Source: Flagellimonas marinaquae
GTDB lineage: Bacteria; Bacteroidota; Bacteroidia; Flavobacteriales; Flavobacteriaceae
DNA: 64,000 nucleotides
Direction: 5' to 3'
NCBI RefSeq assembly: GCF_023716465.1
Contig: NZ_CP092415.1
Location: 2,581,501 to 2,645,500 of the forward strand
Position numbers and translations under genes: made by a program. Under the pieces are notes generated by a model. It searched no databases. It was not told the origin of the DNA and was given only the letters and a program-made list of their open reading frames with translations. Shown here piece after piece: positions 27,004 to 43,205 of the stretch. Numbering within the stretch: position 1 is the first letter of the stretch; each line of letters opens with the position of its first letter.

Positions 27004-28173
27004 CTACAATTTGGAATACTTGATCATATACAAGTATCGGATGACCAGGGTCAAAAGTAAAGGAATAAGTACAGGTGAAAAAATCTGAACTTTGATAATC
27101 CATAATAAAAGAACTAGGACTATCAAACTTAGGGCAAACCATAGATATTTTGTGCCCCATTTTGGAATGTTATCCTGAAAAACGAATACAAACGCAACTC
27201 CTAAATTTATCGGGAAAGCCCATAGTATGTTGTAATTATAAGGTGTGGAGGTGTGATCTGCCGCTACCCATAACAAGAAAAGGAAGGTGCCGGCCAATCC
27301 GGAAATGAACAACAGGGTAAAGTCCAACCAGCGGCTTCGTGTCTTATGTTTGTTGTCGAAATAGGTGATGATGGCCGTAAACGCCAAGAGCAACATAAAC
27401 CAGAACAAAGGAGAGAGCGGAAAAAAACCACTTTGCGAGTGTTCGTTATAATCCAAAATGGTGCGCTCCCTCTTGACCAGGGGTTTCCCGTTCAGGGTAG
27501 TATGTCGTAGTTGTTCCATGGCATAGTAGGGCAAGAACATATGTTCCTGTACGGTTGCCTGTCTGTCCACAGGGGATCCAAAGGCCAGGTCTATGCCGAA
27601 CATGGACCAGGTATTTACATTTAAGAATTGCCTTACCAATTGCCGAAAAGTATATCGTTTCTCCAGATATGATCCATCGAATACCACAGCATCTCCAAAT
27701 TGTTCTTTTAAAATATCTCCGGTAATACTGGAGCAGTTGTTCAATAGAGGGTCGTACAGGTAATCTCGGTTTTCGGGGAGATAGTTTTCTTCAAAAAATG
27801 CAAGGAGTTGGTTGCGTTGTTCAAGGTTTAAATCTAGAACTTGCTCTTTTACCCATCTTTTTTCCAACTCATATTCAAACAAAAACGACTCAAAACTTCT
27901 TCGGGAAAGGGAATAGATCATCCTTCCCTTGGTAAAATTTAAATAAAAATTGGGTTGGTTAAAGTCAAAAGTACCGTAGTTGTAGACAACATCAATCCCT
28001 AAAACCGAATCCTGTACCCGAAATGCGCTATGTCCAAATGCATAATATAGTACATCGCCCCCTGCACATGTTAAAAGACTTACTTTGGAATTTTCCGATA
28101 GCTGTGGTGCTTGGGAGAAAACAAAATTCCCTGTAATGAGAAATAAAGATAAAAGAAGAAATATCTTTTTCAT
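27004..28173 (-). CDS. Lnb-like protein (DUF4105) with C-terminal membrane domain
   Basis: 389 residues: a signal peptide ending NFVFSQ, a periplasmic domain to about residue 250, then five or six membrane segments. The N-terminal domain has LLTCAGGDVLYYAFGHSAF and LLNNCSSITGDIL; the conserved His and Cys make it a DUF4105 (Pfam PF13387) member, NlpC/P60-like. This family has recently been linked in Bacteroides to lipoprotein N-acylation (Lnb); I transfer that only as a hypothesis. The gene diverges from pssA and lies 21 bases before the ABC-F gene. Confidence 0.82.
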   Translation of the reverse strand: MKKIFLLLSLFLITGNFVFSQAPQLSENSKVSLLTCAGGDVLYYAFGHSAFRVQDSVLGIDVVYNYGTFDFNQPNFYLNFTKGRMIYSLSRRSFESFLFEYELEKRWVKEQVLDLNLEQRNQLLAFFEENYLPENRDYLYDPLLNNCSSITGDILKEQFGDAVVFDGSYLEKRYTFRQLVRQFLNVNTWSMFGIDLAFGSPVDRQATVQEHMFLPYYAMEQLRHTTLNGKPLVKRERTILDYNEHSQSGFFPLSPLFWFMLLLAFTAIITYFDNKHKTRSRWLDFTLLFISGLAGTFLFLLWVAADHTSTPYNYNILWAFPINLGVAFVFVFQDNIPKWGTKYLWFALSLIVLVLLLWIIKVQIFSPVLIPLLLTLVIRYLYMIKYSKL

Positions 28174-40762: not shown

Positions 40763-40793
40763 TTGCGAGGTTGTCCTAGGTTGGTTAACTTTG
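40763..40793 (+). promoter_or_regulatory. Promoter for the coiled-coil-zapA transcript
   Basis: TTG at 40763-40765, 20 bases, then TAACTTTG (40786-40793), a complete consensus match. Transcription would start near 40799, about 20 bases before the ATG. Confidence 0.65.
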
Positions 40794-40819: not shown

Positions 40820-41110
40820 ATGAGCGAACTTGTTGAGATTGTGGATTCTTTGGAGAACAAGGTGAGCAAACTGCTGCACAAAATGGAGCTGTTGCACCAA
40901 TTGAACGCTAATTTAAAGCTTGAATTGGAACATCTAAAGGATGAAAACAAACTCAAGGACGACGCTCTGAACCAATGGGAGGAGAAGTACGATTCCCTTA
41001 AAATGGCAAACACGATGCTGGGTAGTAATACGAGTAAAACAGAAGCTAAGCTCAAGATAAATACATTGATTCGCGAACTTGATGTTTGCATAGCCAAACT
41101 AGCGGATTGA
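40820..41110 (+). CDS. Small coiled-coil protein upstream of zapA
   Basis: 96 residues, nearly all one coiled coil: LVEIVDSLENKVSKLLHKME with Leu at heptad positions, then a linker with Asn/Ser/Thr and a terminal helix KINTLIRELDVCIAKL. The start is ATG 40820, matching the promoter upstream; an in-frame TTG at 40805 is nearer the predicted start site. By its position 14 bases before zapA and its coiled-coil nature it is a candidate division-ring accessory protein, like ZapB of E. coli, but no sequence homology is claimed. Confidence 0.72.
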   Translation: MSELVEIVDSLENKVSKLLHKMELLHQLNANLKLELEHLKDENKLKDDALNQWEEKYDSLKMANTMLGSNTSKTEAKLKINTLIRELDVCIAKLAD

Positions 41111-41124
41111 TTAGTTACAGAAAT

Positions 41125-41418
41125 ATGAACGAGAAGCTCAAAATAAAGCTTTCCATTGCCGATAGGGTATATCCATTGACCATAGACCCCAAGCAAGAAG
41201 AAGGATTGCGGAAGGCGGCCAAGAACATTGAAAACCTGGCCAAAAAGTTTGAGCAAAATTATGCAGTTCGGGACAAGCAAGATGTATTGGCCATGTGTGC
41301 CCTACAATTTGCATCCAAAATTGAGCAGAGTGGGATAGATCGTTCTGAAAATGCGGAAGCAGCCATGCAAAGGCTCAGGGCATTGGATGAACTGGTACAT
41401 TCCAAACTGGGAGAATAA
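41125..41418 (+). CDS. zapA: Cell division protein ZapA
   Basis: 97 residues; the N-terminal LKIKLSIADRVYPLTIDPKQ is the ZapA globular domain and EEGLRKAAKNIENLAKKFEQ begins the coiled-coil helix that makes tetramers and bundles FtsZ. MCALQFASKIEQ and ALDELVHSKL follow. The frame is open to 41086, but that region overlaps the upstream gene; ATG 41125 gives the normal family length. A structured RNA lies just downstream, as 6S RNA does after zapA in gammaproteobacteria. Confidence 0.9.
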   Translation: MNEKLKIKLSIADRVYPLTIDPKQEEGLRKAAKNIENLAKKFEQNYAVRDKQDVLAMCALQFASKIEQSGIDRSENAEAAMQRLRALDELVHSKLGE

Positions 41419-41439
41419 GTTCTTTTAAATAAAATAATG

Positions 41440-41615
41440 TTACTGCCCACATAGGTAATATTTTTTGACAAACTCAACACTATTATAATTCAAAAGGGTG
41501 AGTTTAGATTGTAAAAGCAGGCCCTACTTGCATAGGGATCCTTGATCAGTCTGTTAGCCCTAAACCTGTAATTTGGAGTTTGTACAAAACTTCAGCCTAT
41601 GTGGGCTTTTTTTTT
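41440..41615 (+). ncRNA. Probable 6S RNA (6S-Flavo type)
   Basis: A non-coding interval between zapA and rny folds into one long interrupted hairpin. The ends pair perfectly: GCCCACATAGG (41445-41455) with CCTATGTGGGC (41596-41606), followed by nine T (41607-41615). Inside, ACAAACTC (41468-41475) pairs with GAGTTTGT (41576-41583), and CCCTA...TAGGG form an apical hairpin at about 41522-41537. A rod of about 175 bases with a terminator at its base, next to zapA, is what 6S RNA, the RNA polymerase sigma-A holoenzyme inhibitor, looks like. I assign it from structure and context, not from a database match. Confidence 0.65.
41596..41615 (+). terminator. T-run terminator closing the structured RNA
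   Basis: The right arm CCTATGTGGGC is followed by nine T. The stem's left arm is at 41445, so the terminator hairpin is also the closing stem of the RNA. Confidence 0.7.
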
Positions 41616-41633
41616 AACTAAACACAAACAAAC

Positions 41634-43205
41634 ATGGATAATATCGTAGTAATTGCTGTCGCAGCTGTTGTAGGGCTTGCCATTGGCTTTTCAATTGCAA
41701 AGATAATGGAGAAAGGCAAAGCGTCCAAGACCATTGCAGGGGCAAAAAAGGAAGCTGCCGATATCATAAAAGAAGCAAAGAAAGAAGGAGAGGGCATAAA
41801 AAAGGACAAAATTTTCCAGGCAAAGGAAAAATTTTTGGAACTGAAGGCCGAACATGAAAAAGTTATAATCAATAAGGACAAGAAAATTGCCGAGGCCGAA
41901 AAGAGAACTAGGGACAAAGAGTCCCAAGTGAGCAGTGAGTTGGCCAAAAATAAAAAGTTGAACGACCAACTTCAGGGCAAAATACAAGAAGTATCCCACA
42001 AGAGTGAAATTCTTGATAAAAAGCAGGCCGAAGTCGAAAAACTACACAAGAGCCAAGTACAACAGTTGGAAGTGATATCCGGGCTATCTGCAGAAGATGC
42101 TAAGGCCCAGTTATTGGAGTCATTAAAGGAAACCGCGAAGAGCGATGCCATGGCCTATCTTCAAAATACTATGGAAGAGGCCAAACTGACCGCACAGCAG
42201 GAGGCTCGAAAGATTGTAGTAAACACTATTCAACGAATCGGTACGGAGGAAGCAGTAGAAAATTGTGTGTCCGTGTTTAATTTGGAGTCCGACGATGTAA
42301 AAGGACGCATAATCGGTAGGGAAGGACGAAATATTCGTGCTTTGGAATCGGCGACCGGAGTGGAAATTATTGTGGACGATACTCCAGAAGCAATTATTTT
42401 ATCCTGTTTTGATTCCGTTAGAAGGGAAGTGGCCCGTTTGTCCCTGCACAGATTGGTGACAGATGGACGAATTCACCCAGCACGTATAGAAGAGGTTGTG
42501 AAAAAAACCGAAAAGCAAATTAATGAAGAGATTGCTGAAATAGGGAAACGTACCGTAATAGATTTGGGTATCCATGGCCTTCATCCAGAACTGATCAAAG
42601 CGGTAGGACGTATGAAGTATAGATCTTCGTACGGTCAAAACTTGTTACAGCACTCCAGAGAAGTTGCCAAGCTCTGTGGGGTAATGGCCGCCGAACTTGG
42701 CCTAAACCCTAAATTGGCGAAAAGGGCCGGACTTTTGCACGATATAGGTAAAGTACCAATGGCCGAAGTGGAGGTGGAGACCCCTCACGCGATCTTAGGT
42801 ATGCAATGGGCACAGAAATATGGTGAAAAAGAGGAAGTATGCAACGCTATCGGAGCTCACCACGACGAAGTTGAAATGACTACTTTAATATCTCCCATTG
42901 TTCAAGTTTGTGATGCGATCAGTGGTGCCCGACCAGGTGCAAGGAGACAGGTTTTGGACTCGTACATACAGCGACTAAAGGATTTGGAAGATATCGCCTT
43001 CGGCTTTCATGGGGTGCAAAAAGCATATGCCATACAAGCTGGTAGGGAACTTCGTGTAATCGTGGAAAGTGAGAAAGTGAACGACGATAAAGCCGCCGAG
43101 CTATCTTTCGAAATCTCACAAAAAATACAGACCGATATGACCTATCCGGGTCAAGTTAAGGTAACCGTGATCAGGGAAACCAGATCGGTAAACGTTGCCA
43201 AATAA
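41634..43205 (+). CDS. rny: Ribonuclease Y
   Basis: Membrane-anchored endoribonuclease that starts mRNA decay. 523 residues: an N-terminal membrane helix ([18 protein letters not shown]), a long Lys/Glu-rich coiled coil (about 30-175), a KH domain ([19 protein letters not shown]) and an HD domain with [15 protein letters not shown] and [11 protein letters not shown], the catalytic metal site. Length and order are as in Bacillus. It comes directly after the probable 6S RNA, so two regulators of RNA levels are neighbours. Confidence 0.97.

Follow-up and report, generated by a model that had tools for sequence, protein, structure and literature searches.

Promoter mimicry, with release by a product RNA, is the established mode of action of 6S RNA in other bacteria. 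The E. coli 6S gene, ssrS, has promoters of its own. The boxA element, for its part, is known from rRNA, from phage and from a few mRNAs.

The proteobacterial 6S locus has the order zapB-zapA-ssrS followed by fau or EVE, with zapB present in many species (PMC7641849). The 6S-Flavo family (Rfam RF01685) was described by Weinberg et al. in 2010 (PMC2864571), 6S transcripts have been reported in F. psychrophilum (PMC9723704), and there is evidence for 6S with product RNAs in B. thetaiotaomicron (PMC7366714). The gammaproteobacterial boxA consensus is GYTCTTTAANA (PMC5725501); the boxA survey in that paper did not, according to its authors, consider non-coding RNAs. During rRNA synthesis, boxA is proposed to retain boxC close to the exit channel while the polymerase travels on to the trailer, and the boxA-boxC spacing is 18 or 19 nt in 98% of enteric rRNA leaders (PMC10250234).

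The window, by which we mean the whole 64-kb stretch of DNA analysed here, comes from a genome of the Allomuricauda/Flagellimonas (Muricauda) group; its RNase Y is 97% identical to that of A. profundi. A sequence-only reading had proposed a probable 6S RNA in the gap between zapA and rny and had set a covariance-model search as the test beforehand. The search returned a significant match: positions 41472-41581 of the + strand fit RF01685 with 102.8 bits against a curated cut-off of 85 bits (E 5.6e-17), over all positions 1-108 of the 108-nt model, and 6S-Flavo was the sole RNA family above its cut-off in an Rfam scan of the window. The same reading had cited an Rfam family for Bacteroidota 6S under two names, of which 6S-Flavo is correct and Flavo-1 belongs to a different motif, RF01705. 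The general 6S/SsrS model RF00013 scored 30.2 bits over 41441-41611, below its cut-off of 46.4 (E 0.00026 in 601 bases), and RF01693 (Bacteroidales-1) reached 25 bits, below its cut-off of 60. The gap element is very probably a 6S RNA in both identity and function. The RNA at 41441-41612 is as such already catalogued and is an ordinary 6S for its family. The features of the locus are the following.

40786-40793, + strand: sigma-A type -7 box TAACTTTG, a perfect TAnnTTTG, the proposed only promoter of zapB-zapA-6S-rny
40820-41110, + strand: zapB-like coiled-coil gene, name tentative (PF06005, 21.9 bits, below the cut-off of 31.5)
41125-41418, + strand: zapA (PF05164, 64.9 bits, E 8.5e-18)
41419-41429, + strand: boxA-like element GTTCTTTTAAA, directly 3' of the zapA stop, with conserved GTTCTTT
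41441-41612, + strand: 6S-Flavo RNA of about 172 nt (RF01685 core, 133-genus alignment, covariation), its probable ends taken from conservation
41445-41456, + strand: closing helix, 5' arm, pairing with 41595-41606 and lying outside the Rfam model
41476-41495, + strand: 5' side of the central bubble, candidate product-RNA start site, with invariant AAC at 41476-41478
41562-41575, + strand: 3' side of the central bubble (alignment, covariation)
41595-41606, + strand: closing helix, 3' arm (alignment, covariation), which together with the U-run has the form of an intrinsic terminator
41607-41615, + strand: U-run, 127-132 of 133 genera having T at each position from 41607 to 41612
41634-43205, + strand: rny, encoding RNase Y (PF12072 RNase_Y_N, E 4e-34; PF01966 HD, 4.8e-18; PF00013 KH)

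The Pfam matches confirm both flanks of the RNA, which had been placed between zapA and rny and directly before RNase Y. The position next to zapA had been likened to that in gammaproteobacteria, and rightly so: the order in E. coli K-12 is zapA-ssrS-fau (PMC7641849). The window RNA and proteobacterial ssrS have in common a rod with a central bubble and zapA as upstream neighbour, whereas downstream lies fau or EVE in proteobacteria and rny in the window. Moreover, E. coli has no GTTCTTT between zapA and ssrS, whereas the window has the boxA-like GTTCTTTTAAA. E. coli K-12 also has no zapB beside zapA; the zapB-like gene of the window is below the Pfam cut-off. Compared with RF01685 itself, the window RNA is a member, but the model represents only the core, so that the closing helix, the U-run and the upstream element lie outside it.

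The rod described from the letters alone proved real in its parts. The RNA fold of 41430-41630 (-58.6 kcal/mol) is far from chance, with a mean of -38.1 for shuffled sequences, a z-score of -4.93 and none of 200 shuffles equally stable. The 11-base closing stem is found at 41445-41456/41595-41606 as 11 Watson-Crick pairs plus one U-G, the inner 8-base stem as a run of eight pairs (41468-41475 with 41576-41583), the CCCTA/TAGGG hairpin at 41522-41526 with 41533-41537, and the T-run as nine T at 41607-41615.

The family, which the named relatives of the window place as Flavobacteriaceae, was represented by 149 genomes, one per genus, and all counts given in this study were taken over related genomes and are not independent events. 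RF01685 matches 146 of the 149, 135 of them above the cut-off, and the three genomes without a match are 66-80% complete. The family alignment used 136 of the 146 loci, of which 133 could be anchored. It omits six loci without a full zapA-rny gap (L057, L078, L079, L111, L116, L145) and four found in a later search (L094, L097, L100, L103), and three more were excluded when the U-run anchor was not found (L089, L152, L158). Across the 133 genera the conserved span begins at about 41441 (TACTGCC) and ends at the U-run, with a median length of 171 nt. Covariation was assessed in alignment A1, consisting of 53 of 60 picked rows, one misaligned row of 113 nt (L159) and six long rows (L059, L065, L074, L126, L128, L129) being left out.

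Conservation of the paired arms in related genomes, whose absence the sequence-only reading would have counted as a refutation, is evident in this alignment. In the closing helix, 9 of the 12 pairs are changed on both sides and 97.3% of cells are paired, with compensatory changes across the 53 genera; helices 1, 2, 4, 5, 6 and 7 are paired in 91.6-99.6% of cells. Thirty-five pairs show double changes against a shuffle mean of 26.2, and the covariation score of the whole rod is 0.358, compared with 0.193 for shuffled partners and 0.043-0.102 for slid ones. The single outermost apical pair is paired in 23.1% of cells. A chance fold in the gap, for which nothing speaks beyond its AT-richness, is refuted by the z-score of the fold, the Rfam match and the compensatory changes, and we assign it a negligible probability.

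The minimum free energy structure also places a helix inside the bubble (41482-41487, helix 3), but only 46.6% of cells are paired there; the helix is not conserved, as expected if the bubble is open, and was removed from the model. All 133 genera share the unpaired AAC at 41476-41478. Such invariance would suit a product-RNA start site, and in the window the product RNA may start at about 5'-GUUGAGUUUGUC. If the RNA works like other 6S RNAs, its rod would imitate an open promoter, sigma-A RNA polymerase would bind the central bubble and so be kept off real promoters, and the enzyme would be freed on copying a short product RNA from the 5' side of the bubble. As a possible mimic of the -7 box within the bubble, TAATTTGG at 41569 was considered and dropped: it is a 5-of-6 match in the window, and the family consensus there is T-rich.

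The gene order is nearly constant in the family. The 6S RNA has zapA before it and rny after it in 140 of the 146 genomes, and zapA is upstream in 145, the contig ending before zapA in the remaining one. Five genomes have zapA upstream with rny not found within the fetched stretch. From the U-run to the start of rny, the median distance is 22 nt (n=133). The gap measures 281-419 nt at five loci (L018, L020, L052, L054, L061), where additional sequence with hairpins separates rny from the 6S U-run; this additional sequence might contain a promoter for rny there.

We then looked at promoters. The sigma-A -7 box is TAnnTTTG (PMC9723704), and it occurs within 80 nt upstream of zapB in all 132 family genomes with an identified zapB, against a shuffle mean of 19.4. 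Further downstream the box is no commoner than chance predicts: it occurs in 4 of 133 over the 105 nt preceding the boxA-like element (shuffle mean 5.6), in 1 of 133 over the last 45 nt ahead of the RNA (2.3) and in 17 of 133 within 6S (28.1). Nor is it clearly enriched in the stretch that begins at the U-run and reaches 60 nt into rny, where 15 of 130 have it against a shuffle mean of 9.6 (sd 2.8, maximum 19). By its nature, this test is blind to alternative-sigma promoters before 6S or rny. From the distribution of the box we consider it probable that 6S lacks an own sigma-A promoter and that its transcription starts at the promoter before zapB, rny being reached by read-through past the U-run. 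The locus would accordingly form one operon, zapB-zapA-boxA-6S-rny. The simplest reading is a single zapB-zapA-6S-rny transcript from which 6S is cut out, while some polymerases terminate at the U-run. The box at 40786-40793 would serve well as a reference promoter in this family.

Immediately 3' of the zapA stop codon, the form kept in the family is GTTCTTT(A/T)AAATA. The exact GTTCTTT is present within 60 nt upstream of the RNA in 105 of 133 genera (shuffle mean 1.76), and 18 of the 28 genera without it are one base off. In 103 of the 105 genera carrying it, GTTCTTT sits 19-25 nt before the RNA. The window element GTTCTTTTAAA has one mismatch, at position 8, to the gammaproteobacterial GYTCTTTAANA, and the commonest family form, GTTCTTTAAAATAA (29 of 105), fits that consensus. 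A second copy of GTTCTTTTAAA at 27702 falls within a coding region of the opposite strand and is expected by chance.

These features are open to a different explanation, namely that the RNA is an ordinary 6S-Flavo with its own promoter. GTTCTTT(A)AAATA would then be a promoter element, recognized by a sigma-A variant or another sigma, about 20 nt before the RNA rather than boxA, and the gene order would have no regulatory meaning. The fixed distance of 19-25 nt in the family is promoter-like, and E. coli ssrS provides a precedent. On the other hand, GTTCTTT is unlike the sigma boxes named in PMC9723704.

Of 86 class loci read, 84 have zapA ahead of rny, and the gaps range from 5 to 668 nt; 60 of 80 additional class rny loci were fetched. 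A full-RNA model, R1, matches 21 of the 26 loci with gaps longer than 180 nt, each within the gap (E <= 0.014), missing L185, L197, L306, L309 and L345, and none of the shorter-gap loci rises above 13 bits in the gap. R1 did not detect the 15 RF00013 loci given to it. An Rfam scan of 20 long-gap loci gave nothing above any cut-off. A second full-length model, R2, was built from 33 training rows (alignment A2, with six wrong-strand rows, was discarded); its E-values are rough owing to a short calibration. R2 matches 48 of 119 class genomes, of which 17 gave training rows and 31 are non-training, and short-gap loci score at most 19.1 bits with it. The Rfam models exceed their cut-offs in 4 of these 119 genomes: 1 with RF01685, 3 with RF01693 and none with RF00013. 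With a threshold of E 0.001, the counts become 4, 7 and 0. The full-length model thus finds 6S in many class genomes missed by the Rfam models, which should help annotation. In the 71 class genomes without an R2 match, 6S is either lost or still unseen.

Two comparisons bear on the reliability of R2. RF01693 detects seven genomes at E <= 0.001. One of them (G160) is an R2 training genome; five of the other six are recovered by R2 at matching coordinates, and G368, a strong RF01693 match, is missed. Among the three class genomes in which RF01693 (6S-Bacteroidales) exceeds its cut-off, two are matched at the same coordinates by R2, a model built without that family, G368 again being the exception. 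R2 also overlaps 15 of 15 RF00013 matches in other classes of the phylum, none in training (21.7-42.3 bits; one partial, E 0.034), only one of which passes the RF00013 cut-off. All 15 have the order zapA-6S-rny; in four of them ZapA was checked with Pfam and confirmed each time. That zapA-6S is common to Bacteroidota and Proteobacteria suggests a very old link of division genes with 6S, one that might predate the split of the two phyla.

By place, coordinates and a check for ZapA divide the 48 R2 matches into 26 with zapA-6S-rny, three with zapA-6S and no rny found beside (G359, G380, G430) and 19 elsewhere. G359 and G430 have no rny match anywhere; in G380 the contig ends soon after 6S, and its missing rny may be an assembly break. 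No common second home for 6S away from rny emerged among 25 loci, beyond same-family pairs. The relocated matches with the lowest scores (under about 57 bits), most of which have no GTTCTTT upstream, may be false positives; the one in G434 is an exception, being confirmed by RF01693.

The relocated copies also speak to the idea that the rod is mainly a cis-acting attenuator or stability element in a read-through leader of rny mRNA and not a free RNA. Such a leader would fit the short distance between U-run and rny, where no sigma-A box is enriched. Against it, the RNA is kept without rny found adjacent in 5 of 146 family genomes and, in the class, in the 3 zapA-linked and 19 relocated of the 48, and it matches a trans-acting 6S family. 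We regard this explanation as very improbable.

Returning to the boxA-like element, GTTCTTT occurs within 100 nt upstream of the RNA in 19 of 23 class zapA-6S-rny loci (shuffle 0.25), and in none of the 23 downstream or antisense. The 23 omit L109 (sister of L108), L312 and L317; with them the count is 20 of 26. The three zapA-linked loci without rny beside all have it. At the relocated copies, it is upstream in 8 of 19 and absent in 11 of 19 (shuffle 0.51), with 0 of 19 downstream and 0 of 19 antisense; this set omits L110 (G183, outside the class sample, no element) and the second matches L389 and L396. In some cases, then, GTTCTTT has relocated together with the RNA. The RF01693 copies L387 and L394, away from zapA, lack it upstream. 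Promoter boxes upstream of relocated copies were not used, being just 5-of-6 matches without a control. Four relocated loci, L382 and L385 of family f47 and L386 and L388 of family f50, have GTTCTTT 24-29 nt upstream and family-specific neighbours.

Across the class, GTTCTTT sits 10 to 112 nt before the RNA, a variable distance that speaks against a promoter element. A spacer between the element and the RNA that would become constant once its hairpins are collapsed was not found (30 class loci, mean 16.3, sd 5.7; shuffled 14.7, sd 4.5). Twenty of the longer class spacers fold better than shuffles, with a mean z of -3.17 and 13 of 20 below -2. Beyond the class, a locus of another class (L165) carries AAGTTCTTTAAAATAC. 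In Chlorobi-like loci L166-L179 and E. coli ssrS, no GTTCTTT was found in the 60 nt or gap before the RNA, except for an unaligned one in L172.

A comparison with rRNA leaders cuts both ways. We read 29 of 30 rRNA loci, L414 having no 16S anchor. Of 26 rRNA loci with a boxA-type match, 25 have that match between a TAnnTTTG box and 16S, a count without a shuffle control; because the element is downstream of the TAnnTTTG box there, it is transcribed, which argues against its being a promoter. In other orders, GTTCTTT is found in the leaders of 21 of 23 loci, likewise without a shuffle control. However, the rRNA leaders of the window's own family have exact GTTCTTT in 0 of 4, which favours an own promoter for 6S; they read GTTCATATACATATTG in three loci and GTTCGTAGACATATTG in one. 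In another family of the window's order, GTTCTTT is found in 0 of 2 leaders, two operons of one genome reading GTTCGTTTGAAA. Because its rRNA leaders lack GTTCTTT, the link between the 6S element and boxA is weakest in the window's family. Among class 6S elements, GTTCTTTTACATA and GTTCTTTACATA are intermediate between the two forms, and a lineage-specific change of boxA in the rRNA leaders of the window's family is possible. The family leaders L399, L406, L398 and L422 read GTTCATATACATATTG or GTTCGTAGACATATTG, and those of other orders GTTCTTTGAAAATATT.

On balance, we favour reading the GTTCTTT right after zapA as boxA, with polymerase entering the untranslated 6S stretch in an rRNA-type NusB/S10 complex. 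An own promoter built on GTTCTTT remains, in our estimate, a real but rather doubtful alternative. In the favoured reading, boxA would protect the untranslated 6S stretch from Rho. The 6S locus and the rRNA leader with its leader-trailer helix resemble each other in a GYTCTTTAANA-type word that has the 5' arm of a long-range closing helix about 19 nt downstream, but boxA of rRNA and suhB precedes 16S rRNA or an mRNA, whereas the window element precedes a small regulatory RNA (PMC5725501, PMC10250234). GTTCTTT is separated from the closing helix by a median of 19 nt in the family (sd 1.5, n=105); the likeness of this spacing to the enteric 18-19 nt is a lead and not a test, the ends of boxA being defined differently.

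By analogy with the proposal for rRNA, boxA tethered to the polymerase could hold the 5' arm at the exit channel while the roughly 140 nt up to the 3' arm are transcribed. The closing helix would thereby form in time for folding and termination. This role of tethering is more speculative than boxA identity, and we offer it as a conjecture. The closing duplex has a median of -18.0 kcal/mol versus -5.2 for a local hairpin (132 sequences). In 40 of the 132 sequences, a local hairpin of -6 kcal/mol or below adjoins the U-run, and termination may therefore not depend on the closing helix. The window hairpin AGCC-TATGTG-GGCT (about 41594-41607), considered as a conserved switch against the closing helix, is not a family trait.

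Taken as a whole, we put forward tentatively that 6S RNA of Bacteroidia, in its ancestral place, is made like rRNA: at the end of a zapB-zapA operon and without a promoter of its own, its 5' arm held by boxA and Nus factors, with a closing helix that matures the RNA and terminates transcription before RNase Y. If this is true, division proteins, a global polymerase inhibitor and a main mRNA-decay enzyme would be under one 6S-repressible sigma-A promoter, and the sharing of that promoter by zapBA, 6S and RNase Y would constitute a testable feedback circuit. BoxA on a 6S gene would likewise be a new target of the Nus complex, linking 6S to ribosome synthesis.

Unlike the RNA itself, the proposed boxA and operon architecture looks new. 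Among the matches listed in the open literature, a scope that excludes the 6S survey of Wehner et al. 2014, we found no description of a boxA-like leader, a missing own promoter or the order zapA-6S-rny in Bacteroidota. Within the same scope, 6S RNA, zapA and Bacteroidetes together led to the proteobacterial case only, as far as the sources were available, and boxA and 6S RNA together appeared, at the level of the listing, only under titles on other subjects.

Several class loci are of interest in their own right. In family f66, L185 and L197 have gaps of 216 and 195 nt with no R1 or R2 match, and their relative L187 has a gap of 72 nt; the two longer gaps hold either a diverged 6S or a different element. 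G408 has two R2 matches (L392 and L396, 54.7 and 38.6 bits) whose immediate upstream sequences resemble each other; they may represent a repeat instead of 6S. Finally, L312, L317 and L323 of family f3 have weak R2 matches of 33-45 bits in the zapA-rny gap, in AT-rich rods that are likely diverged 6S.
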